From: Mugil cephalus
Taxonomy: Eukaryota > Chordata > Actinopteri > Mugiliformes > Mugilidae
Length of the DNA stretch: 64,000 nucleotides
NCBI RefSeq assembly: GCF_022458985.1
Contig: NC_061786.1
Coordinates: 18,668,974 to 18,732,973 of the forward strand
Direction: 5' to 3'
Below the pieces are notes generated by a model. That model did not search any database, was not told where the DNA came from, and was given only the letters and a program-made list of their open reading frames with translations. Made by a program: the position numbers and the translations under genes. Shown one piece after another: positions 4,797-64,000 of this stretch (its first letter is position 1; each line of letters begins with the position of its first letter).

Positions 4797-8092
<3,296 letters not shown>

Positions 8093-11648: not shown

Positions 11649-12937
11649 AATCAAATTACAAACATAAGTGTGTTTGCAGTATGTCTTAAGAGTATTGTAT
11701 TTTACTTAGGTTGAAGCAATGGCGCTGTGTTACATGGTGTAATTTAGTTCCTATTGAGTAACACTGTAGACAAGACCAACTCAATTTAAAAGTGTGGTAT
11801 AATGCTCAGTAATGGCAACAAACAAGCAAATAATCTAAACTCAACTCAACTAAAAAAACAAGCTCCCTCTGTGAATCCTTTAAAAGTGTTGACGTGGTCT
11901 TCTTATATCTGTCTTTTGCAGGTGTTCTTATTATTTTGTCCAGTCCAAAAAGTACTAATAACACTGGTGCAAGGTTTTCAAAAGTTAAAACTGGAAATAT
12001 CAACTGAATCCACCTGCAATTATCTGCAGACCGACGAATCAATTAAGTGACTCATCAGTGCAGCTCTAGACACGAGACAAGACGGGGCTTTGGTATCAGC
12101 CCAAGACGCCTGATGTACAAAGGAAGACACACAAATCAAATAAAGTTTAATGTATATGAGCTGTGAATGTGGCACAAGAATGTGGCTCAACATTTTTTAG
12201 CCGCCTGCACTGTTGTTACTCTTTCAAACATTTACAAACTGGTTCACCACAATAATCACTAATTTAAAATAAGCAGGACACGCTGGAACAAACGAATGTT
12301 GTGCATCAAAGTATTTGGGCTCCTGGGTCGAGAGGAAAAGAATTAATTATTGCTAACATCTGCAATGTGCTGATGTTTAGATGTTATCATCATGTGTGTT
12401 AGCTTGCTAACACAAAGTAGGGTTATGGCTGATGGGAGTGCTATTCATTTTCTAGGTATCCTGTTATAAATCACAGAAGAGGATTAGGATTCCTCCTCTG
12501 GCGAACACATGTACAACATTTCATTGACTTTTTTGAGATATTATAATCCGGAAGTTGCATTTGGTAAATTCTGTAAATGTAGTAAAGGATGTTGGAAGCA
12601 AAAAATGTTAAGACTTAAGTTCTTTTATTGGATGGAAAACGGACGGTGTAGAGAGAGTGAATGAGAAACCATGACCCCTGGAGTTTTGTAATCTGGGCAC
12701 GTAAATTGCAGGCAGTGAATTTATGAAAATGCTGCACTTTTAAGGTCCACCATAAGGCTCCTCAATTCCCTGAACAGCTGACTAGTAAACTCAAGTGTGA
12801 AAGTAAGAGGGACTTTGATCAACGCTCGGGGGCCCAACTCGTCACTTTAAAAAATGCTACTCTTCTCGGACAGTCTCAGAGCGGAGCTGCTTGAAAGGAA
12901 TCCACATTTCATAACCGGCTTTTAAATAACCAACGAG
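11649..12937. other. Spacer upstream of the slc22 transporter
   Basis: AT-rich, with no supported ORF, RNA gene or clear repeat. The last 150 bases before the ATG at 12,938 are likely 5' UTR and proximal promoter. Confidence 0.4.
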
Positions 12938-15900
12938 ATGGCGAACGCAGACAAACTCATAGAACACGTCGGAGACTTTGGACCTTTCCAGAAGAAGATT
13001 GTCACACTCGGTTCATTTCCGTGCGTATTTTTTGCTTTTGTGCTCGTCGGAGTGGTTTTCTTGGGTAACACTCCGGATCACTGGTGCTTAAGTCCAGGGA
13101 CTGAGCGACTCCAGGAGGAATGTGGCTGGACAGAGGTTGAGGTGCGAGTCGCGACCGTTCCCCACGCTGAGGAGCCGGCATCTTTCAGCCGCTGTCAGAG
13201 ATTTGCCGTGGACTGGAGCAAAAGCCAAAACAAGTGCGTTGAGATCGACTGGTGGCTGACTTCTAACGAGACCCAGCCGGTCCGTTGTGACATCGGGTGG
13301 GTTTTTGAGAACAGCCACACAACTATTGTTTCTGAGGTAGGACATCCTTCATTCTAACGACACAAACATTGTTAGAGGTCTGAAATGTGAGGCCGTAAAG
13401 TTTCTTCATCACAGACCATAAAATTCAGAAATTTATCTTCTGGGGACAGAAATCGTTAAGTTGTGCAACACGACCCCAGTCGCCCTACAGCTAAAAATAA
13501 CACAAACAAACGGCGTTACAGTGAGATTTAACAAAGACATTCATATAAGAAATGCTCTGCCCTGGGTAGAAAAGTTTTCTCTTGCTCCTTTAATAATCTT
13601 TTTCTTTTTAATTTGTGTACCTTAATCGAGTTATTTCAGTGTGCTAATGTGGCTTTTCGATGACATTTATTCTCCAGTTTTCATTGGTCTGTGAGAAATC
13701 CTGGCTCGCTGATTTGAATCAGGTTCTGCTGGCAAGTGGATTTTTTGTCGGCTCATTTGTCACTGGCTATGTGGCTGACAGGTTTGTTATTTAACCAAAA
13801 AAAAACACAAATTTTCTCTTCGCTAACTATTTTGTTAAGTGATAAATACACGTGGCCTTTTCACAGGTTTGGCAGAAAGCCATGTTTCATTGTGTCGATG
13901 GTTGGCCTGAGTATTTCAGGCATAGGTGTCGCGCTGTCTCCATGGTACCCGCTGCTGCTCGTCTTTCGATTCTTACAAGGCTTTTGGGGAAAGGGAGCGT
14001 GGACGGCCAGTTATGTGCTCGGTACGTTCAAACAAGTTTGTATCAGTCATTAGTCAAGTCAATAAACTATATGCTGAAGAGATTGATCTACCTAAACATA
14101 CTGTCTTCTTTCACATAGTGATCGAATTCTTCGGATCAGGCAACAGGAAATTTGTTTCCATGGTCGGTCGGACATTCTACTCCACCGGCATGGTCATCCT
14201 CCCTGGCCTGGCTTACTTTCTGATCTCTTGGAGGTCTCTGCAGCTGGCCATGAGTCTTCCTTGTATGCTGTTCATCTCATACCACTGGTATGAATACACG
14301 ACAATCCCCAAATACGCCTCCTTTAGCTTCAGTCTTTATGCGCGCTTTGAACCTGATACCCAGTCCAATACAAAGTGTGTCTGTTTTTTTAAAGGCTTGT
14401 TCCTGAATCTGCACGCTGGCTGATCTCACAGAAGAGAACAAAAGAGGCCATGAAAATTGCTGCCGACATTGCAAAATGTAATGGGAGATGTTTACCACAT
14501 AATCTCCAGGAGGTACTTGATTCTTCTTGATTAGAAACCGCGATTTTGCAAATGTAGATTCTGGAAAATTGGTCCTCCAGATCAGACTGAGTGTTTATTT
14601 TTGTTTTGTTCTTTTAATTTTCAGGCAAGTCTCCTGGAGGAAAAGAAAGAAGTGCATCCTGTGTCCATTATGGATCTGTTGAGGACACCAAACATGAGAA
14701 AAAACACACTCATTTTAACCTACGCCTGGTAAGTCGGATTTTATTCGGTCATTTTATACTAAACGACACTAACACATCCTATTGATTGTTCCTGGAGGGG
14801 AAACTGCGGTATAAATTTCACTCTCTATTCCTCTGGTGCAGGTTCACAAGCACTGTTGTGTTTCAAGGCCTGGTCCTGCGGCTGGGAATCACAGGCGACG
14901 ACCTCTTCTTGGATTTCTTAATCTCCGCTGTAGTGGAGCTTCCCACCGGGCTCATCTTCTATCTGGTGGTCGACAGAGTCGGCCGGCGCTCCCTGATGGC
15001 CATCACTAACTTCACTGCTGGTATCGCCTGCCTCGTGGTTCCCTTTGTGTCCAGAGGTAGGTATCGTTGAACCATTAAACCATTAAGAAAAATTCCTCGA
15101 TGATGCTTGATGATGCGTCTGCTTCAGCCCTGTTTTCATTCTGTTGAAACTACAGATTTTGCCTGGTTGAAAAAGTCGATCGCGATCATCGGGAGGCTCG
15201 CTGTTTCGGTTGGACTTGAGACTGTGAACTTTGCAAACACAGAGATGTATCCAACAACTCTGAGGTGTGAAACCATGTAGCGTTGATAGGGGTTTGGATT
15301 TTCTGTGCTGTGAAAGAGAACGACGAAGCGATGAATAATGTGTCTATCAGTGCATAATTAAAGTTAAGTGAAATCCAAGCGAGAAGCAACTATTTGAAAT
15401 GACCTGAGCTACTCTATCCACCTGTAGAACAGCTCATCTTTTTGTAACAATTAAGCCATCATGACCAACTAATTTCCCTTGTGGATCATTGATGTAAACT
15501 CAGATGGTAAATATGTCTAATTGTGAGGATTTTAGCTTTGATGTTGCGCATGGGTTAGCTCGTTCTAGTAGAGTGTTTAGAGTCATTCTGGCTTTGAGTT
15601 TTGCATTAATTTATGTTTACTGTAGACGCAACATAATCAAGAAGGAAAAGTGAGATAAAATTGCAGTTTTTACTTAATTTCTGCTTTTTAATTCCTCACA
15701 GAAACTTAGGTGTGTCAGTGTGTTCATCGGCGAGTGACATTGGAGCCATTGTGGCTCCATTCCTGCTCTACAGACTGGCCAACATCTGGAAGGAGCTGCC
15801 TCTTTTGGTTTACGGTAAATTTGATCTACTTAACTATTCAAACATGCCAACTTAAAATGTATGACTTGCCCTCTGAGATGAAGATGTGTGTGTATATTGG

Positions 15901-16283: not shown

Positions 16284-18030
16284 AGACACTGAAGCTCTGA
16301 AGAGCAGCGACATTGGTGGATTATTTCCTGCAGTTCTGTGTTTTAACATCACGTCTTGTTGGAGTCTGCTCATTAGATTTATAACCAGTTGTTTATGGGT
16401 TATGCAGCCTTGAGTTACATTATTATTGAGTGTTTATAGAGTTTTGCACTCTGAAGAGATAAAACTAAGAGGGTGCAGCGACGCTAATTTTCGGGCATTA
16501 ACATTATTTATAACTGATGAATTAACATCACCATCCACTAATGGCAATAAGGGTGACGGGACTTACAACACTCAGATTTCTTAAAACAGCGATTAACCTT
16601 TGCTTTAAATATTTGTCTGTTACCTGACACAATATGTCCAAAGCTCACATTAAAGAAATTAGAAGGAAATTGATGGCTTTTTTTTTTTTTTTACCATTCT
16701 TCTTTTTATCATTATCATTCAAAAGGGGGAAGAACTGCAGACCATTGCGTAGACCTCTCCCGGCTCATGTTGATCAGTTGGTCTAGTATTTGAGAGATGA
16801 AGATGAAACACAAGATGAGTCGTCTCGTGGACATTTGACTTAATCACTCCCGTTTCTTTTTTGGTTAACGCCAGTCAGAGTGATCTCTTTCCTGAACGAG
16901 CTAAAACTAAGGCCACTAAAACTAAGGTCACATTCACCATCAGCTAACCAGCTTGGGGTGCTTGGTCTCTTAAAGGATATATGTGGTGTCAACAAATCCT
17001 ATGTAAGGAGTCTGATACTGATTATTCCTGTGGCATGGAGCATTGCTATTGACTAAAAACTATCAAAAACACATCAATGGACTACACTGATCTACTGACG
17101 AAGCTTTTCCTTTGTTAGGATGAACATGAGAGTTCCACTTTACTGTGATTCAAACTAACATTCACAAACTACTATGCACTCTGACTTCTGAAGTGCAAAC
17201 CAAAAATGGGTTTGAATCATGCTGATGCAGCCTTTCATCTGTTTCTTCAATGAATTCTTATAGTAGAAACTATAATGTTTTTCCAACTAACAGATCTTCT
17301 GTGTATGTTCCAACATCCAGACTACAATACCCTTGATTGTTTAGTTTTCGTTTGCCTTTACTGTATATTTAATTGAGGGTTGTTTTTTTGTTAAGGCCTT
17401 TGTCCCATTGTAAGTTTACCCGGGGAAGCGTCGCCGCAGACAACAAAAGCTGCCCCACATACATACCGCTGACTGAATGGGAAGACATGTAACCATAAAT
17501 TGCGCTGAAAATCACTGGTATGCATGAGAAGTGGGATTCCCTCAAGCGTAAATATCCGTGTCGCTGCGAAACGGAGGATGAAAATCTCTCATGGTGACTG
17601 TGAAAAGGTCCCTGGGAGCGATGCACACAGTCGGCATCACATGATGTCTTCTGGATTATTGTTAAAATACACAATAAACTGTCAAACTTTGCACTTTTGC
17701 TGATAAAAATGGCTGGAAATATCTAAAATAAGTTGTCTATTTGGATGCCGATTGTCAGATTTAAGATCAGGAAACTGTTTTTCATGCATAACAAAGAGCC
17801 ACTGACCTGTTAAACGAGGTCAGAGGGGTGTGGGGGCTTCAAGAGGGTATGAGGATGTGGCAATTTTTTTTTTAAAACTCACTGCAGAGGATAAAGAGTT
17901 TATTGAAAAAGAGGTGGGGTCTATTGATAGATGTCAGGCAACTCATGAGAACGTTTCTGGCACAGAATACACCTCTCCTGTTTCAGTGGCAGAGCTGGTT
18001 AGATTTACAACTTAGAGCTGGTTGTTATTA
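16284..18030. other. slc22 3' UTR and afadin upstream region
   Basis: No coding gene is supported. A poly-T run lies near 16,679-16,692. An AATAAA occurs at 17,673-17,678, rather far from the slc22 stop. The block at about 17,400-17,680 has more balanced composition than its surroundings and could be promoter or first-exon sequence for afdn. Confidence 0.35.
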
Positions 18031-18052
18031 AAAAAAAAAAAAAAAAAAAAAA
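18031..18052 (+). repeat. 22-base A tract ending in the afadin start codon
   Basis: An unbroken run of A whose last A is the first base of the ATG at 18052-18054. An in-frame TAG at 18013-18015 just upstream supports this ATG as the start of the open frame. Confidence 0.8.
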
Positions 18053-21000
18053 TGCCAGAGGAGGAGAAACGAGAGAAATTAGCCAAAATCATCCAACAGT
18101 GGAACAACAACAGACTGGACCTGTTTGAAATTACCCAACCTGATGAGGTGAGTCTTCTGCAACCACACATCAAGATTTTGAGATGATTGTTTTAATTACC
18201 AATTAATATTTATAATAGTTACAAATCCAAATACATTGAATAGCTGTAATGTCCTCTGCAGGATGTGCTGTTTATCTAATTTTAGGAAGATATCTGATTC
18301 TTTTTCAAGTTCTCGCCATGTTCTTGACTTTTCATATCAAACAATAATGAGAGTTTATGCCACGTCTGATTTAATGTTTTATATAAACTTTATCTCATAT
18401 CTTGATAATATATTTCAACACAAACAAAAATATTATTCACCAAATAAGAACTTTACCCATATCATATAACAGTGACAACATTTACAGGACGACAAAGCTC
18501 TAACACATAGTGGCTGTGTAAACTTTAAACACAAAAATTGTTAAATCTCATAAACAGAGAATTTATTACACCATTAGTTGATTGTGATTGTGGCCTATGT
18601 TCATTGCGACAAAATAATAATTATTTTACACATAATGAAGTAATTACGTCTACTAAAGCATCATCTTCATCACGCCACTTTTAAAAAATGACAAAATTCA
18701 TTGTCGTTGATTGATGACTACTTCTAATTAAATAATCAGGCAGGTTTTAAGCAGCAATCTATGTCATGAATGGAATATATTTAGCTTCTTGACTGAGGTT
18801 TAGTTTCCTATTAACCCTCAAGTACATACTATTTATCTCTCAGCATCAACTGGTTTTAAGTTCAGATTTGAAGTTTTCTCTTACAGTCTTTTCTCAGGGA
18901 AAAGGTTTTTAAACTCCTAAATAGTCTGTCTAAAGAGTCTAAACATTAACACGTGTGTTTTCTTGCAGAAGCTTGAGTTTCACGGCGTGATGCGCTTCTA
19001 CCTGGAGGATCATGTTGGAGACAACGTGGCCACAAAGTGCCTGCGCGTTTGCAGCAACTCTGCAACTCGCGAGGTCATCGAAACTCTTTCCGAGAAATTC
19101 AGGCCTGATATGAAAATGCTGACTACTAGTTATTCTCTGTTTGAGATCCATAAAAGTAAAGGTAAGCAGTACTTCGCCTGTATTCAACAGAATACAGGTG
19201 AAGAAAAGAGTCTGTCTGCCTCTTTGGTGTGACGATGTTGATAATAAACTTTGATTTTGATAATTTATGTTTTTTTGAAGCAAAATGCTGCTTTCAGACT
19301 CTAAATTTGGAAGATTTCTTGTTTCATTTTAATGTGATAGTTAATCTGTTGCTAGGATGAAAAAAATATGTAGGACAATGTGACATTTTCTGACATTTTA
19401 TAGATGAATCATGGAACTGAAATTATTTTTAAGGTTTATTTGATATTGAAAACAGCTGTAGTTGCACGTCTCGTTTATAAAACATAATGAAGAATTAAAA
19501 ATATCCACAGATTTTTTTGTCTGTCTGTTCTGCGCAGCATGCAGTGAAAGCTGTGTTCACTCAGTCGTGTTTTTTTTGAATGAATATGAATGAATATGCT
19601 TCCATTATTTCTAAGTGTTTTTTGTTTGTCAGAACGCAAATTAGATCTGGATGAGAGGCCTTTAGTCGTACAATTAAACTGGAGCTCAGACAACAGAGAA
19701 GGACGTTTTGTGCTCAAGAAGGACAAGGACAGTTCGCAGGTGACCCTCAAACATGCTACATGTCTGAATTATGAAATAATGAGCCATCTGATATTGATAT
19801 CTATGCTTTGTTTATGTGTTGGTCATTGAAGAAAAACAGTCAAGAGAAAGGAGGTGTGATCCAAAACTTTAAGAGGACGCTATCAAGAAAAGGAAAGAAA
19901 GAGAAGAACAACACTAATGCAGCTGACAAGGTTTCAGAGGAAGAGAACAGGTAAAAATTTGTCATTGTTTGCTTTTTACTGATGGCAGGTATATACTGAT
20001 ATACTGTGCATAACCATCTGAATACCACTCTCTCCTTTCAAATTAATATCCAGGTCAAATGACAACCCACTGAACAACAACAGCATTTATTTGTCTCATT
20101 TTGAAACGCGTAAAAGACAACAGATGCCAACTGCTGCAGGTAAGTGATCTTACACGGACAATATTTAACCTCCACTCAAAAAAGACTGTGTGATAAAAAC
20201 ATATTTTATTCTCAGATCAACCTGGATTACCAGTTGGAGTTACATTCTGTGATAGTTGTGAGTATAAAACTCAAACACAAATTGCTTCCACAACTGTATT
20301 TCCTTTACGTTAGTGCCTCTCCATCTCCCTCTCACAATGTCCTCCTGCCCCCTGCTGGCGTCTTTTACATTTCAGCCGAGGATCCCTTCCTGTCCGCAGT
20401 CATAAATTACACCAACAGCTCCACAGTCCATTTCAAGCTCTCACCTGCATACGTCCTTTACGCCGCGGGCCGGTTTGCCCTGCGACACCATTACGGCCGA
20501 GGCTCTCAACCCTCGGGAGACGCACACAGAGTAGCCTCAATCACAAACAAAATGGTGGCCATGACAGGGACGGTCATCGAGGCAAGTCCATAAAAAACTT
20601 TTAGATATTCTAGGTCTGCAAAGGCAGAATTTATCAAATGGCCTCATTTATAAACATTTAATCTTTAAATGAAGCTATATTTCACCATCACAATATGACA
20701 TGCTGCCATGTTAAAATCATAGGTGCAGGTGTTTCTATGTGGGTTTACATTAATTTATTTGCCTTTCCAGAGGCAGAAGACCATCGCTGGAGCTCTCGCC
20801 TTCTGGATGTCCAACTCCTCCGAGCTGCTAAACTTCCTGAAGAATGACAGAGACCTCAGCCCACTCACGCAGCAGAGTCAGCTGAACCTGTCTCACCTGG
20901 TGCACAGAGCCTACAGGTACAGACCACAACATTCTCCTGAAACATGCACGAATGCAACACTACGTGACTTCTTCAACCTTCTTCCTACTTTGTAAATACT

Positions 21001-24000
21001 GCCCTATACGCAGTATTCACAGTAATAATTCACTCACATAAGTGCATGTGTAAGAGTGCAACTGCAGAAATCTTCACATCTGTTTACATTACAAGAAAAC
21101 AAGAGAATTGTGTATTTTAACTCTAATTCATTTGATGCACAATTCACAGAGAGATGTTTCATTTTTATTTATTCCCTGAAGCTACCTGCTACAGTGTCTA
21201 CAGAACGAGTTAAAGAAACATCTGCCAACTTTTCTGATTGATCCTGAGCAACATGGTGCGTTGCCAGCTGGTATAGGTAAATGTCTCATTATAAATAGTA
21301 CAGCTACAATTGATATTACTCAGTCCTCTCTTGAAAAGATGATTTTCTTTTATGCTGCTGTTACAGAGATGGTGCTCAACACCTTGATGAACGCCATGTC
21401 TCTGTTGCGCCGCTGTCGGGTTAACCCTGCCCTCACCATCCAGCTCTTCTCCCAGCTCTTCCATTTCATCAGCACCTGGCTCTTCAACAAGCTCATGAGC
21501 CCGGAGGCCGGCGCTCCAGGCCTGCGCTCACACTACTGGGGAGCTTCTTTCCGCCAGAGGCTCACCGCCATCGAAGCCTGGGCGGAGAGGCAGGGCCTGG
21601 AGCTGGCTGCCGACTGTCACCTCGGACACATCATCCAGGTATACCCATACCTTCTCTCCATATCTGAATACTGGTAAAAAACGGCACTTGAGCTGCACTT
21701 TTGCTCTGAATTATAATAATAACACAAAGATTTCTACCTCCAGATTTCCACCTAAAATACTGCTGTAAGAACTTCTTACAAGCCAATTCATTTTTTTGAG
21801 CCCTCTGGTTTCATTTAAAGCATCAGAGCATTCATTTCATTTGGTTGTTTCTAGGCAACCACCCTCCTGAAAATGAAAAAGTACTCAATGCAAGACGCGA
21901 AGGACATCCAGAGTACCTGTTTCAAGCTGAACTCGCTGCAGCTGCAGACGCTGCTAGCCGGCTACCTCTATGCAACCAATGAGCCTCACATCCCCCCTGT
22001 GAGTACTTTCAGTCGACTATTACCCTCCACCAATTCCAGCAAAGTCATGTAAGAGAGGAGGATAGCTTGCAAAAATCCACCTAATACTACTGCCAACCTA
22101 AATCTCAACGAGTCAACTCATGTGTACCACAGTCTTATGTGATAATAGCTGGAACAAAATCTCATTACACTATACAACACGTGTCCTGCGATGACAATAA
22201 TGACCATTCTCATTCTTAATTTGATTTTAATAATAGATATAAGCTCAAGGTTTATTGGGAGAGTTTTTTCTGCATGGCAGGAGGTCAGCTGTGGAGTTAG
22301 TAGTATGAATAATTAATGAGGAATGTGTTAATAAATAATATATGAAGGATAGTAAAGTGAGTTGTCACAATACTCTATTGCTATTGAGTGAAACATTGCT
22401 GCGTATGCTGACTGTGAGGTGTGGTGTGTCTAGTCCAAGACGAGACAGGGTAATTATTCTGTAAATGGGCATTAGCCCATGTGCCACAAACCTTAGTCAG
22501 TCAGTAATATTAAAACATTCCAGTCCACATTGTATCAGTATTAACTGCATGAAAGCATAGAGCAAACAACAATGTGTATTTAAATTTATTATTATGTGTA
22601 TCCTTAGCCTTACCGCTATAATTCGTAGTCTTGTGTTGATGGAGGCATTGATTACATTTCAGAGACTCCAGTTTCCTGGACTATTTATTTATATTAAAGT
22701 GTAAGATTTAATGCAGGACTGCTGTGTTTTCCTATGGTAGCTTTCACGAGGCTACCTAATATACAGCTGCTTGGAAAAATATTTGAGGACACTGGATTTT
22801 GTTTTTGTTTTTTTGAAAAAGTTTGTTGAGGATCAGATGTTAACATTAATACAGATATTAACTCATCTTTTCGAAGCAATCCATTCACACATACTGCTTA
22901 ATACAGAATGATGTGTCACGAGGTAGTTAACAAAAGTAAAACCTTAAATTAACAGCACACAAGCACAAGGTTAAGCTGAGACAAGTTCTCAAACACAACA
23001 CAACAGAGCTGGAGGGAAGTCTTAGCTAGCGGCTTAATGCCGTTAGCTTAGGCAAATACAGACCTAACGTTACTACCTGAATATGGACATTTGTAAATAC
23101 AAAACAAAGCAGCGAATGGACAAAAACATATTTACCTCGCTTAAGTAAAGAAAGCAGTCTTGTTCTCCAAGTTCTTCTCAAAACAGAACAGGAGTTCACA
23201 GCAGGAGAGGGAAATCCAGAGGCCCAAAATGGAAGAAATTAACATTAGCAGTAGTTCGTTCAAAAGGGGAAATGAAGCACTCAGTCAAGTTAACATTTGA
23301 CAGAAGGGATTTCGCTCTTTAAAAAAATATAAATATAATTACAAATGTTAGTATATAAGGAGAAAACACGGCGGCCGTTACATGTTTTTAGCTATCTAGC
23401 TAGGAAGCTAACAAACGGCTAACTAGCTAGCTAGCTAGGAAGCTAACAAACGGCTAAGAAACTGGGAATTTAAATAGACCGCTTTCTAAAATATGATATT
23501 GTTTCTAATGATTCGCAGTTTTGGTTATATTATGGCAGAAAATAAAAATACGTTTCCACTGCTGATAATTGTGTTACTAATAATATCACTGTTGCCGGAG
23601 AAAAAAGGCTAAATTGAATCGTGGTGTTACCATGACGACCATACCGCACTTTAGAAATAAGAGAGAAAAAGCTAATATTATTATTATACATTTATTTTTA
23701 CTGTTTAATTTAAATAATTATTAATTATTATTTCATGTGATGTTAAAAAAAAACGTCTGATTTGTTGATCTAAATTATGTTCTAAATAAATCTGCACCTA
23801 TCTTCAACTAGTACAACGTCTACTACTAGCATCTCTACTTAAAACTAGGAAATCAAATCTAATTGGGAAATAAAACAGAAACAAGGACAAATCACCACTT
23901 TTTTTTCTTTTTTTAATGTGTCACTTTGGTTTTCAGTGGCACTGCACAGGTTGTAATTTTTGTACCTAAGTCAACATAGCATTGTAATACTTCACTACAG

Positions 24001-27000
24001 CTAAAAGTAGCGCTTTGGTGCAAGAATTAACAACGTAACTGCACACAAACCAGTGTGATTTATTATTAAAACATACAGTTATATTGCGGAATTTATGCGA
24101 TAATAGATAAGATGCACCTTTATTGATCCATGTTGGACAAATTCCAAATAAACCGTAGCAATAATATAAAAATTTGTAAGAAAAAGCAGAAATCTGCACA
24201 TACAAATGTTAAGAATATAGCAATAAGAATAAATATTATGTGTGTGCACCTTGTGTATTCATGCGACCATGTGCAAAATGAAAACGAAGGAAATCACTTA
24301 ATAATTACTTACCTCAGAATTACTTTGAGCTACAACATACATAAACATTTAAAGCAAACTTACAAGCGGCTTCATCGTTATCAGCATTATAACATCACTA
24401 TGTATGTTGTCCTTCTCCACCTGTGCAGGGAGGTCAGAGGTCAGACTCATCTTCAGTGCTGTACAGCAAGCAAATTAAATGTCCCCTTCGTGATGCCCTG
24501 TCACAAAATGACGAACGTCGATCTGGTCCCATCCCCTACACCGACCTTTTCCTGATATATTTCCGCTGTCTAATCCCGTGTCTGTCATCAGGACTTGATC
24601 GATGCCGTAGTGACGGCCGCCTCGGCCTCAGCAGATAACCTGATTCGGAGTGAAGGACGGGACGTCCAGCTGGAGGAGAGCCTCGACCTCCACTTGCCTT
24701 TCCTGCTGCCGGAGGGAGGATACTCCTGTGACACCGTGAAAGGAATCCCTGCAGGGTTCAGAGAGTTTCTGGAGCCAATTTGCCAGAAAGGTATAAAAAC
24801 TTATCCTTCAGCTCCCAGCTTTGTCACGTATTTGTATTATATTACATCTTTTTCTTGCAGGTCTCTGCTCTTTGACATCTCAACCTAACCCTAAGGGCGA
24901 CTGGACCGTGTTCTTCAGTGAATCTATTGCTGCTGAGGAGAGGACGTACCTGGTAAAGTAAAACGCTGTTTATATTCTGCAAGATGTGTTAAAATTTAAG
25001 TTTAACTGCATCTTCTACCACAGGCAGCGCACAGACAACCAGAGATTGAGACGATCATACTGAACAAACCCTTGAACAGTGGGATGGGGATCAGCATTGT
25101 GGCAGCCAAGGTGACCGCCTCGATTCAGTCCACCCCAAACGTGTCGACCAATTAACCAGCCTCCGTGTTGTTTTGACAGGGAGCAGGCCAGGGAAACCTC
25201 GGCATCTACATTAAATCTATCGTCAGAGGAGGACCGGCTGAGATGGTGAGATCTGACACAGGTTAGATCCAGCTGAACTTGTAGAAAACACTGTTCAACT
25301 TAAATCATGTGTGTGCAGAATGGAAGATTAACGGCTGGGGATCAGCTGATCAGTGTGGACGGTCAAAGCCTGGTTGGATTCGGCCAAGAAAGGTAGCTAC
25401 GTACATAAATAGTGGGGGAAAAGTTAATGTTTTTAGTCTCTCGGAGCTCTGAGCTTTTCATCCTGCGCCACTTGAGGTAGATGCTTGTGGTTTCTGAAAG
25501 AAATCATCGTCCTTACGATCCACAAACTAATGATGCATTTTCTTTGCTATGCTCACTAATTTAGGGCAGCAGCTATCATGATGCAAACCGGCCCCATTGT
25601 GACCTTAGAGGTTGCGAAGTTTGGAGCGAGCTACCACGGCCTGGGAGCTCTGCTGAGCGAACAAGACAGAACTACAGGTAAAAAAAATACGCTTTTAGTC
25701 AAAACATAGTCACTTTCTGCTCTTTAGTGCATCATCTTTTTAAAATTTTCTTCTCAAGGTGATAGAGGAGATGCTAAGTCCAGCAGTGAAGCAAACCGGC
25801 TGTACAGTCACGGATGCAGCAAAAGAAAAAAAGACCAGATAATGCAGAGAAACAGACAACTGTATCGCTCCAACCCCAACGTGACCAGTGAGTGCTTCCC
25901 GTTTTTTGGTTCACTCGTTGCTGCCAGGCGCAAGCAGCAGCACAGATTCCCTCAATGTGAAATATGCTAAAAGCTCCAGGGTGAGTCATTACGCGAGCTG
26001 CAGTATTTTTACCTTCTCCTTATTCCAGCAGACTTTCGCCTGGAGGAAGGGGATGAACCCGGTGACCCCGCCGTGAGAGGAAACAACATCGTTTCTGTCT
26101 CCAGCGCCAATCTCTGCGCCGATGTGAGGTTTTTCCACATTTAGTTGACGTTTTGTCGAGTTTTTTTTTTTTACTTTAGTTGTTAGTGGTGACAAACGAT
26201 AGGAACTGAATCAACGGCGAAAAAGATTTTCCACATTTTCAGTGTAAAAATACCCATATAATTAATCTGCTCGGACAGTTCTTTGGACATTTTGAGAGTA
26301 CAAAATGTGAGAAACAAAATACCGATAATTAAACTACTGCTGCTTTTATTTCACAAAATATTTACATTTTGTCTCTATTCAGTCATTTCACAGGCAATGC
26401 CTGACACTTCCCAACCCTAAATCCCAGGATAAGAAGGCAGCTGAACCAGGTCGACCTCAGCAAACATTCAAAGCGTCTTGGAGACCTTTAGATGCTCAGA
26501 GCTCCAGTAAGAGGACCTACATGGTATGTCCTGACGTAACTTTCATCATCATTTGTTGCATTTACTTGCACTTGTCGGTAAATGCTGTAAAAATCTCCAT
26601 AATCTTTCCCAAGCGCCAAGCCCTCTCACAGGAGAACTTGTGTGTGGACAGTGGAGGCCCCCTGCTGGACGAAAAGCAGAACACGTGGGCCCTCACGGAC
26701 CAGGGTGCGAGGCAAACAGCGAGCCACTACTCGTCTTTCCCAATCCGCTCGAGCGTTTCCAGTCACGACATCCTCTCTGACGAGCAGCGGGGGGGCAGCC
26801 GGACAAGCGGCGCCGGTGTGTGGAGAACCCCTTTCTCGCAGCTTTCAGCGTCCACACCCTCCATCCAGCCAATACGCATCGACATCCCCATAACCAGAGC
26901 CGTGAACTCGCACTCAAACCCTCCACTCACCACCTTCCGGCAGAGCTCGTCCGTGCTGGCGGCGAGGAAGTGCCAAACTCTTAAAGTCGGCGGACACAAG

Positions 27001-28246
27001 CCTCAAAGCCACATTTATGTGTGTCCCATTGCTGCGACAAAGAAGAAATCGCTCCTGCAGCCGCAGCAGCAGCAGCAGCAAAGATGCAGCGCGCGGAGAG
27101 ATCAAGCAGTGAAACCCCAAGTGAGCATCACTCCAACCAAACACGTTTCCTTCCAAGAACCTCCCCCTCAGCAGGCGAGGAGCCCCGAGAGGCCGAGGGA
27201 GCCCCGCCAGCTGCCCGACCCGTGGAGGAGGGAGGCCCAGGAGAAGCTGGAGAAGCAGCGGCGGCTCCGGGTGGTGGAGCTCCTGGGGCGGGAGGTGCGA
27301 GAGCTCCAGGCCAGAGCGGAGCGCACGGCGGAGGAGAGCGAGCGGCTACGCAAGCTCAGCCTGGAGTGGCAGTTTCAGAGGAGGCTGCAGGAGATTCAGC
27401 AGAGAGGAGAAGACGAGGAGGAAGATGAGGACTTGGACATGATGGTGACGTTGCAGCAGCTGGAGGCGAGAGCGCAGGTGAAGGTTTAACGGGGAAATAA
27501 GCTTTAAATGAGCTTTTAATTTATAACTGAAACGCTGAAGACCCCTGCTTAAAAACTAAATTTAAAGCCACAATAATTTCATATATTTATTTATTTTCCC
27601 TTTAGAACAAGAGCAGCTCTGTTGGAAATGACAACAAGGAGCAGAAAGAGGTAGAGAAGGCGACAAGAACTCATCTCCCTGAAAAGGAGCATGAGGCAAA
27701 GACAGGTAATAAATTCACATGAAAGAAGGGTAAATGTTTTGCCGTCACTTTCATTTATTTAACACAGTTTGCGTTTTCGTCATTTCATTTCAAACGTCCT
27801 TATTCTTGGCAGCTGGAAGACGGAGCGGGCTGAGTCACGACGGTCACAACGTGGCATCGGAACAGTGAGTGTACAGTTCTTGGCGTATGGAGATTGAAAT
27901 GTAATCCACTTTAATGGGCAGCTCTTTGTGCAGCGCTTCCACTCGCGATGACACAGCCACGCACAGCAAGAAAGCAATTATGGCCTTTCGCACGCGCTCT
28001 GTTTGCAAGCGTATCCCTGAGTAAAAGAAACGTACAGAACCACACCCCAAAAAAAAAAAATCAGTTTTTTTAAAACAGCACAGTTGTTTTTGGTTCCCCA
28101 TAAGTAATGCTATTCAAGTATTTCCACTGCTGTCGTGGTTTTATATTTGCAGGAACCAGCGAGAGAAAACGAGGAGGCTGTCGGCTCCTGAGAAGCTCAC
28201 TTTCAAGGAGCGTCAGCGTCTCTTTTCCCTGGCGTCCAGTGCATGA
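18052..28246 (+). CDS. afdn: Afadin paralogue lacking the RA2 and FHA domains
   Basis: Twenty-three exons join in phase: 18052-18147, 18969-19161, 19633-19739, 19832-19950, 20054-20139, 20376-20581, 20771-20916, 21182-21276, 21367-21638, 21855-21998, 24592-24790, 24861-24952, 25024-25110, 25180-25245, 25319-25392, 25565-25677, 25759-25887, 26029-26123, 26383-26523, ~26614-27477, 27606-27705, 27813-27864 and 28153-28246; 1,189 residues. Residues 33-130 form Ras-association domain 1 (LEFHGVMRFYLED). A basic linker has GVIQNFKRTLSRKGKKEK. The dilute domain starts at about 201 (FLSAVINYTNSSTVHFKLSP) and runs to about 560. The PDZ lies at about 590-685 with GMGISIVAAKGAGQ. A coiled coil at about 1022-1105 starts at DPWRREAQEKLEKQ, and the end is LTFKERQRLFS plus six residues. 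Afadin links nectins and Rap/Ras signalling to actin at adherens junctions. Compared with human afadin (about 1,820 residues), RA2, FHA and the final F-actin-binding tail are missing. The start of exon 20 and the 26029/26032 acceptor are uncertain. Confidence 0.9.
20140..20375 (+). other. 236-bp afadin intron at the site of the missing RA2 and FHA domains
   Basis: GT at 20140, AG at 20374-20375, phase 1 on both sides; the junction codon reads GCC (Ala) before E-D-P-F. At this point canonical afadin has roughly 450 residues containing RA2 and FHA, but no coding similarity to them is seen in these 236 bases. A CTCF-core-like motif (reverse strand) lies at 20344-20360. Confidence 0.75.
20576..20587 (+). 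other. GC-AG intron donor in afadin
   Basis: Exon 6 ends ATCGAG (last base 20581) and the intron starts GCAAGT instead of GTAAGT. The next exon resumes at 20771 with RQKTIAGALAF in frame, as in other afadins. The remaining donor bases fit the strong consensus expected for GC donors. Confidence 0.8.
21999..24591 (+). other. Longest afadin intron (2.6 kb), AT-rich, no nested gene seen
   Basis: It lies between coding exons 10 and 11. It contains the CTAGCTAGG repeat pair at 23399-23457 and a stretch near 24,095-24,140 ('CACCTTTATTGATCC') that resembles the 3' tails of teleost non-LTR elements. No other gene is supported. Confidence 0.5.
23399..23457 (+). repeat. Two direct copies of a 24-bp CTAGG/AAGCTAACAAACGG unit with a CTAG microrepeat
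   Basis: The same 24-base unit starts at 23399 and at 23434, separated by an (ACTAGCTAG)-type spacer; both copies are identical by eye. Confidence 0.85.
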
Positions 28247-28578: not shown

Positions 28579-29358
28579 CTACTTAGTGCGCTGATAAAAC
28601 TGCACCACAGCTTTCTCCTGCTCCTGAGTCTCAATCGAACCTCGTCGAAGCCTGCGGATCTCGTTGATGGCGTCGATCCCCGACATCTTCCTGGTCTTCA
28701 CCAGGTAGCAGGCGAGCATGGTGCCCGTCCTCCCGTGGCCGTGCATGCAGTGAACCGCCGCGCCCTGAAGACAAACAATTCCTTCGTTAATTTGCCTGCC
28801 CGACATCCTGCGGTCGCACGCTGGAACGTCATGAGCTCACGGTTTGGGATCAGGAGGAAACAAGGCTCTTTGTTAATTGAGAAGATAACAAGCAGACGGT
28901 TTATCTGAGCCTTCTCGTAAACTGGCAAATGGTTCTTGTAATTTTATTCCCGGCCACTAATCCGGGGCTTTAATGGACGTCGACCGAACGTGATGACTGT
29001 GGATTGTGAGTGAGAATTCGTCCCCATAAGAGTTCTGAGAATACTTGACAAGCATAAACGTCCATCAAGTCTGCGATCAGATGCTCACCTCCCCCTTAGA
29101 GTTGGCCTCCTCCACGATGGAGAGGAACCTGTCGATCTGAGTCGGTGTCGGAGGAGTGAAGTCGGCTATCTTGATGTGGTGAAGCTGCAGCTCCGGGCAG
29201 GTGTCGTGGTAGGGCGGTTTCCTCTCACACAGGCACACCAGGTGCTTGATGCCGTTGTCCAGCAGGTACTGGTACTCGCAGGTCATCCTGGGCATGGCCA
29301 GTCCGGCCACCTTACCTGGATCCACCCAGGAGAAGTTGTGTGGAGCGCTGGAGGACAT
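28579..29358 (-). CDS. dusp23: Dual-specificity phosphatase 23
   Basis: Two coding exons on the minus strand: 29358-29089 (90 codons) and 28764-28579, giving 151 residues, almost the same as human DUSP23 (150). The P-loop is HCMHGHGRT with catalytic Cys96 and Arg102. The general acid is Asp66 in KIADFTPP. Flanking family blocks NFSWVDPGKVAGLA, TGTMLACYLVK, EIRRLRRGSIET and the C-terminal QFYQRTK are all present. It is a small cytosolic phosphatase acting on phospho-Tyr/Thr substrates (family knowledge). A splice acceptor (T-run plus AG) just upstream of the ATG implies a non-coding first exon, probably near the CCAAT boxes at 29.9 kb. It converges with afdn: 332 bp separate the stop codons. 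Confidence 0.96.
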
Positions 29359-29910
29359 GACAGCTAAACTAAAAAAAAAGAGGAAGCACGTGTTTTATTT
29401 AAGAATAAAAACATAAATACAAACTTGAGCTTAGTCCGAACTTAGCCTGGCTTTGATATTTTGTCTTTTAAAGCAAATATTAAGAGAGATTAAAAAGTAA
29501 ACATACTCTACAGGATCATCTGTTTGTCTTGTCAACATAGTTACAACACTACCTGCTAGGCTAGGTGGTTCAGTGACTTACAGAGGGATTAGTTTAACGA
29601 CAGTACACATTTCAATATAATAAGACACGGGGTGTGTAAATACGCTGCAGACATAACCACACTACATCTACTTCTACACAAGAAAACACGATCTACCTTA
29701 ACGTTAGTTATGTATGTATGCGCAGCTAATGCTTTGCATGGATTGAGATTTTTTTTTAGAAGATAATGTGTTAGTATATGAATCTATAAATTCCTTTAAA
29801 CCAAATAAATTGCTTTATTTACGACTTGCTGTGGGTAAGAAAAAAAAATAAGTGCGCATTTGTAGAAGGTGTCATTACGGCGCTGCTATTTCACCTGGCA
29901 ACGAGAAATA

Positions 29911-59370: not shown

Positions 59371-64000
<4,630 letters not shown>

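Follow-up and report, generated by a model that had tools for sequence, protein, structure and literature searches.

Mammalian afadin (AFDN/AF6/MLLT4) is a protein of about 1,820 residues that combines an alphaN helix, two RA domains (RA1 and RA2), an FHA domain, a DIL domain and a PDZ domain with a C-terminal region bearing the alpha-catenin-M3 helix (CC-N), the C-terminal coiled coil (CC-C) and a charged tail. RADIL and RASIP1 also join RA and DIL to other domains. Of the reduced forms of the family, the short isoform s-afadin keeps RA2 and FHA, and the Canoe deltaRA2 allele of Drosophila reportedly keeps FHA. What s-afadin lacks is the C-terminal actin-binding tail (PMC9355967, PMC10399776), and the single RA domain left in the deltaRA2 allele is RA1 (PMC11698047). 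Here we describe an afadin homologue at 18052-28246 (+) in a 64-kb stretch of the genome of the fish Mugil cephalus (18668974-18732973 of contig C17; hereafter the window), taken from an assembly of 634,849,253 bases in 24 contigs. At 1203 residues, it has alphaN-RA1, a linker motif, the pre-DIL segment, DIL, PDZ, CC-C and the FKERQRLFS motif in the same order as mammalian afadin, and it differs in having neither RA2 nor FHA and no recognisable CC-N or charged tail. Whereas the Canoe deltaRA2 allele was engineered, the loss here is genomic and includes FHA; like s-afadin the fish protein has no actin-binding tail, but s-afadin is an isoform, and here RA2/FHA exons are not found at the locus. 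With a probability of about 0.7, we read the gene as a protein-coding, divergent afadin homologue whose RA2/FHA exons have been lost at the DNA level, as have the vertebrate M3 helix and charged tail, leaving a slim alphaN-RA1, DIL, PDZ and CC-C form.

The gene model comprises 24 coding exons (1203 codons plus stop), with no internal stops and consistent phases throughout. All 23 introns end in AG and 22 start with GT; the remaining one, intron 7, has a GC donor at position 20582 (context GAG/GCAAGT) after exon 7. Pfam analysis of the spliced protein placed RA at residues 37-128 (58.1 bits), DIL at 389-493 (88.9 bits) and PDZ at 610-691 (57.6 bits). Two weaker RA-type families fell within the same RA1, and the remaining Pfam listings were PDZ or RA relatives in the same places. 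No FHA match was obtained in the spliced protein up to E = 1, and Pfam gave one RA region only. A tblastn search of the window DNA with a human RA2-FHA probe, which agrees with PDB 1wxa and 1wln and is itself recognised by the Pfam RA and FHA profiles, returned nothing significant (best E 0.65), and in the same run the RA1 (1.4e-24), DIL (5.8e-41) and pre-DIL probes matched their exons. When the spliced protein was searched with this probe, a single match came up (14/32 identical, E 0.015, residues 95-126); as this match sits inside RA1, we read it as reflecting the kinship of RA1 and RA2. A preliminary description of the locus had proposed an afadin lacking RA2 and FHA, and both the Pfam content and the negative probe searches in the window bear this out. 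The loss extends further than that description allowed, as neither the M3 helix nor a charged tail was found.

Similarity to known structures places the protein with afadin. Among the best 60 of 183 PDB matches, the top ones were afadin RA1 (6amb, 132.7 bits), PDZ chains of afadin/AF-6 and Canoe, and the coiled coil of afadin (9dva_G, 92.4 bits). Afadin, AF-6 or Canoe accounted for each of the six highest-ranking PDZ matches. Further DIL genes are present in the genome, which would suit a gene of the RADIL/RASIP1 branch, but RA1, PDZ and coiled coil all match afadin best among these structures, and the gene retains both CC-C and the C-terminal motif. The human afadin DIL is moreover 59% identical over 375 residues here, against 36-40% over 58-66 aa for genes on C16 and C20 that are only presumed to be RADIL/RASIP1, in a comparison that included no sequence of either name. 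We regard a RADIL/RASIP1-type origin as extremely improbable.

The N-terminal region retains the features with which afadin contacts RAS. Exon 1 (18052-18147, + as for all exons) contains the start codon and the alphaN helix, with LDLFEI at residue 22 and the Leu-Phe motif at L24-F25, as defined in PMC5653649; a run of 22 consecutive A (18030-18051) lies directly 5′ of the start codon. The first part of RA1 is encoded by exon 2 (18969-19161), supported by the gene model and by PDB and probe matches, and includes Lys55, the equivalent of human K58 (PMC5653649); the second part is encoded by exon 3 (19633-19739; gene model and RA1 probe). The same division, with alphaN in exon 1 and RA1 in exons 2-3, is reported for human and Trichoplax (PMC5653649). 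AF6 RA1 binds RAS through K58, aided by the Leu-Phe motif of alphaN (PMC5653649), and both L24-F25 and K55 are kept.

Between RA1 and DIL, exon 4 (19832-19950; model and probe) carries the linker sequence QEKGGVIQNFKRTLSRKGKKEK, identical to the human afadin probe at 19/22 positions, and exon 5 (20054-20139; model and splice scores) is the final linker exon ahead of the absent RA2/FHA block. A human RA1-RA2 linker probe gave one significant match, the 22 residues in exon 4, so the exon 5 flank RKRQQMPTAA, contrary to the preliminary description, is not well conserved. The interval 20140-20375, previously taken for one 236-bp intron, consists instead of two introns, intron 5 (20140-20215, 76 bp) and intron 6 (20258-20375, 118 bp; both defined by splice scores), flanking the 42-nt exon 6 (20216-20257), which encodes DQPGLPVGVTFCDS and is identified by gene model, probe and splice scores. 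On a splice-site matrix built from the introns of this same afadin gene, the scored site included, the exon 6 acceptor is the highest in 20140-20375 (12.4; 10.4 with the site left out) and its donor (5.9; 4.6 with the site left out) is second to the exon 5 donor at 20140. Because both borders of exon 6 are in phase 1, including or skipping it leaves the reading frame open, and conservation decides: joined to exon 7 it reads LPVGVTFCDSSEDPFLSAVINYTNSSTVHFKLSP, of which 26/34 residues are identical to the human afadin probe directly before DIL. The earlier reading AEDPFL is therefore corrected to SSEDPFL, and the junction residue is Ser rather than Ala. Counted on the human probe sequences, about 370 residues are absent between exons 5 and 6, fewer than the approximately 450 of the preliminary description.

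The DIL region starts in exon 7 (20376-20581; model and probe) with SEDPFLSAVINYTNSSTVHFKLSP..., ahead of the GC donor, and continues through exons 8 (20771-20916) and 9 (21182-21276), both from model and probe. The domain core lies in exon 10 (21367-21638) and the domain extends into exon 11 (21855-21998), each supported by model, Pfam and probe, and its C-terminal region is in exon 12 (24592-24790; model, probe and splice scores), downstream of a 2593-bp intron. Exon 13 (24861-24952; gene model) links DIL to PDZ, which spans exons 14 (25024-25110; model, Pfam and identity to human), 15 (25180-25245), 16 (25319-25392) and 17 (25565-25677, the end of PDZ), the last three from model and Pfam. 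Exon 18 (25759-25887; gene model) lies in the post-PDZ region, which is disordered in afadin, exon 19 (26029-26123) contains IVSVSSANLCAD, and exon 20 (26383-26523) is supported, like exon 19, by the gene model and comparison with human. Exon 21 (26614-27477; model and PDB match) carries CC-C at 27214-27468, in afadin the bridge between alpha-catenin and F-actin. Exons 22 (27606-27705) and 23 (27813-27864) come from the gene model, and exon 24 (28153-28246; model and comparison with human) encodes the APEKLTFKERQRLFS motif and the stop codon.

The C-terminal region is kept in part. Over 217 columns, the post-PDZ stretch shares 26% identity with the probe for the human disordered region (E 5.8e-7), CC-C is 58.6% identical to human over 87 residues (about 92 bits to 9dva_G), and the C-terminal APEKLTFKERQRLFS, with its FKERQRLFS motif, is identical to human at 14/15 positions. 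The residues by which CC-C connects a pair of alphaE-catenin actin-binding domains include W1514, R1516 and D1517 (PMC11482809), for which the equivalents here are W1038, R1040 and E1041. In contrast, blastp with human probes for CC-N and the charged tail found no match at E 1, and in 9dva_G only chain residues 127/129-216 match above noise. PMC10399776 describes the alpha-catenin M3-binding helix (1403-1455) as conserved in vertebrates and not found in flies; within the disordered region, conservation from mammals to flies is confined to a single stretch, which includes helices 2-3. From the residue numbers, and on our reading, the part kept in the fish gene falls in this region shared by mammals and flies. 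A protein without the M3 helix may activate alpha-catenin less strongly, which counts against full afadin-like function.

The protein has diverged evenly across its retained domains: identity to human is 63/97 for RA1 (6amb), 222/375 for the DIL region and 63/98 for PDZ, a range of 59-65%. Zebrafish and human afadin share 75% identity in FHA and 80-96% in the other folded domains (PMC10399776), with DIL at 89% (PMC11006394), which marks the gene described here as a diverged copy. Fly RA1 is 74% identical to mammalian RA1 (PMC11698047) and Trichoplax RA1 66% identical to human (PMC5653649); by such figures, RA1 here is more distant from human than fly RA1 and about equal to Trichoplax RA1, the domain borders differing between comparisons. 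These values bear on whether a local assembly error has dropped RA2/FHA exons from what is really a five-domain afadin. Such an error would be consistent with the lack of a good RA2/FHA match anywhere in the 24 contigs, as a dropped piece would leave the same picture, and the locus is judged from assembled sequence rather than reads. Against it stand the 42-nt exon, which is in frame, conserved, bounded by good splice sites and flanked by short introns, a window without a single N, and the identity of 59-65% in RA1, DIL and PDZ where zebrafish shows 80-96%. Because the M3 helix and the tail are missing too, and RA1, DIL and PDZ have diverged, one artefact confined to this interval does not account for the loss. 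The earlier judgement that an assembly gap within the locus is unlikely thus holds, given continuous sequence, the conserved exon between and divergence alike in RA1, DIL, PDZ and coiled coil, and we consider an assembly error very unlikely.

We compared the intact reading frame with neutral simulations at 0.1-0.35 substitutions/site (60 runs per rate), which produced on average 11.5-29.6 stops, with a minimum of 5 overall and of 12 at rates of at least 0.2. At 32-43% amino-acid change the mean was 20-27 stops and every run had at least 12, against none observed. Zero stops at such divergence argues against an old pseudogene and is evidence of past selection on the reading frame, not proof of present function. 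A young pseudogene or untranscribed relic would account for the fast divergence, the domain loss, the shortened tail and the low splice scores (intron 16 acceptor -0.6) of a model made from DNA alone; it fits poorly with 1203 codons free of stops and frameshifts, 23 introns that are all GT-AG or GC-AG, and the retention of functional contact residues. We hold this explanation to be quite unlikely.

To place the gene among its relatives, we scanned the 24 contigs, with unplaced scaffolds and gaps lying outside and only the best candidates scored. The RA2-FHA probe gave three weak matches at 35% identity (E 0.158, 0.488 and 3.94); since matches at 35% surfaced, a canonical copy with an identity of at least 75% would be expected to surface as well. 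A Pfam DIL scan returned 14 matches, one of them in the window and, by the comparison that follows, the only one clearly afadin-like. The first 12 DIL loci, together with six 10-kb stretches on C20 and one each on C16 and C11, were compared with the human DIL probe, and the longest other matches reached 40% across 58 aa on C16 and 36% across 66 aa on C20. Shorter matches also appeared: C11 and C20 gave three spanning 14-18 aa (57-69%, E 0.03-0.4), and C10 gave one spanning 39 aa (33%). The window protein had a 36-aa PDZ match to C20 (47%). The DIL matches on C3, C10, C6 and C19 were set aside as myosin-V-like, on profile pattern only. A Pfam RA scan gave 22 matches, among which the RA1 exon of the window barely passed (E 4.6e-4). 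The other 21, set against the RA1 of the window and that of human, showed no resemblance to afadin RA1 (at most 23.1 bits, E 0.19, 24 aa), in a scan that a second RA1 exon could escape.

Two interpretations of these scans follow. In one, the gene is the sole afadin of the animal, a vertebrate lineage running its junctions with one RA domain and no FHA after loss of the canonical copy; we think this unlikely. As afadin loss seems lethal in mouse embryos (PMC11482809), it is more likely that the gene is a second copy beside a canonical afadin missing from the assembly. The preliminary description raised the possibility of a subfunctionalised afdna/afdnb copy; in the scans of the 24 contigs no second afadin came up. 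Neither a short nor a duplicated fish afadin appears among the titles and abstract openings listed from open-licence PMC literature, and a collection of prokaryotic contigs contained no relatives.

Several points weigh against our main reading. Scans that yield no second afadin speak against a simple paralogue picture, and the genome-wide negatives come without a positive control by an afadin probe. Duplication is deduced from divergence alone, in one genome. The human DIL probe sequence is unconfirmed, no afadin DIL chain being among its 8 PDB matches (cut-off E 1e-20), and the introns are predicted from sequence and homology alone, some with low scores as noted. The stop simulation takes the amino-acid difference between fish and human as its yardstick, a rough measure, and its outcome would also be compatible with a very young pseudogene.

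The window holds several other genes. Upstream lies a taxilin gene (+) with frames at 5422-5958 and 6153-6647 (Pfam Taxilin); a further frame at 7481-8092 (+), for which Pfam gave no match, is presumably its last exon. An MFS-type transporter frame at 13718-14050 (+) fell just under the Pfam MFS_1 cut-off; its likely exons span 12926-14423 (+), two other frames there gave no Pfam match, and we take them to belong to an SLC22 gene. Tail to tail with the afadin gene is a small dual-specificity-phosphatase gene at 28579-29394 (-), with Pfam PTP-SAK on 29077-29394 and a second exon recognised by eye, which we assume to be DUSP23. Exons at 59371-62038 (-) are presumably FRMD1/FRMD6-like (C-terminal), Pfam giving no match for the two frames tried. 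As we take human AFDN to lie near FRMD1, these neighbours hint that AFDN-FRMD1 synteny may be conserved here.

Studies of individual domains suggest how the slim form might work. RA1 alone has a binding profile very similar to that of RA1/2, and mammalian FHA binds Scribble PDZ1 (PMC9355967). In flies, deletion of RA1 virtually eliminates Canoe function, while deletion of RA2 is viable with defective junctional reinforcement (PMC11698047), so the RA domain kept here is the critical one. We predict from the gene model that the gene is expressed and functional. Active Rap1 or Ras would bind alphaN-RA1 and recruit or activate the protein at the junction, PDZ would bind nectin-type tails, and CC-C would tie together adjacent actin-binding domains of alpha-catenin along F-actin; the link to Scribble through FHA and a second GTPase input would be gone. 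From its parts, we infer a putative slim adaptor that would receive a single GTPase input, bind nectins and bridge actin but have no coupling to Scribble. Such a form could have arisen when a duplication released one copy from constraint and this copy lost a block of phase-compatible exons, between the phase 1 intron that follows exon 5 and the phase 1 intron that precedes exon 6.

Canoe and afadin are being dissected domain by domain, with tests of FHA listed among the steps still to come (PMC11698047, PMC11006394). The gene resembles a natural counterpart of the laboratory-truncated afadins used to study the grip of junctions on the cytoskeleton. If functional, it would show what remains without FHA, and a natural gene that retains RA1, DIL, PDZ and CC-C without RA2, FHA, the M3 helix and the tail would show which core is enough in at least one cell context.

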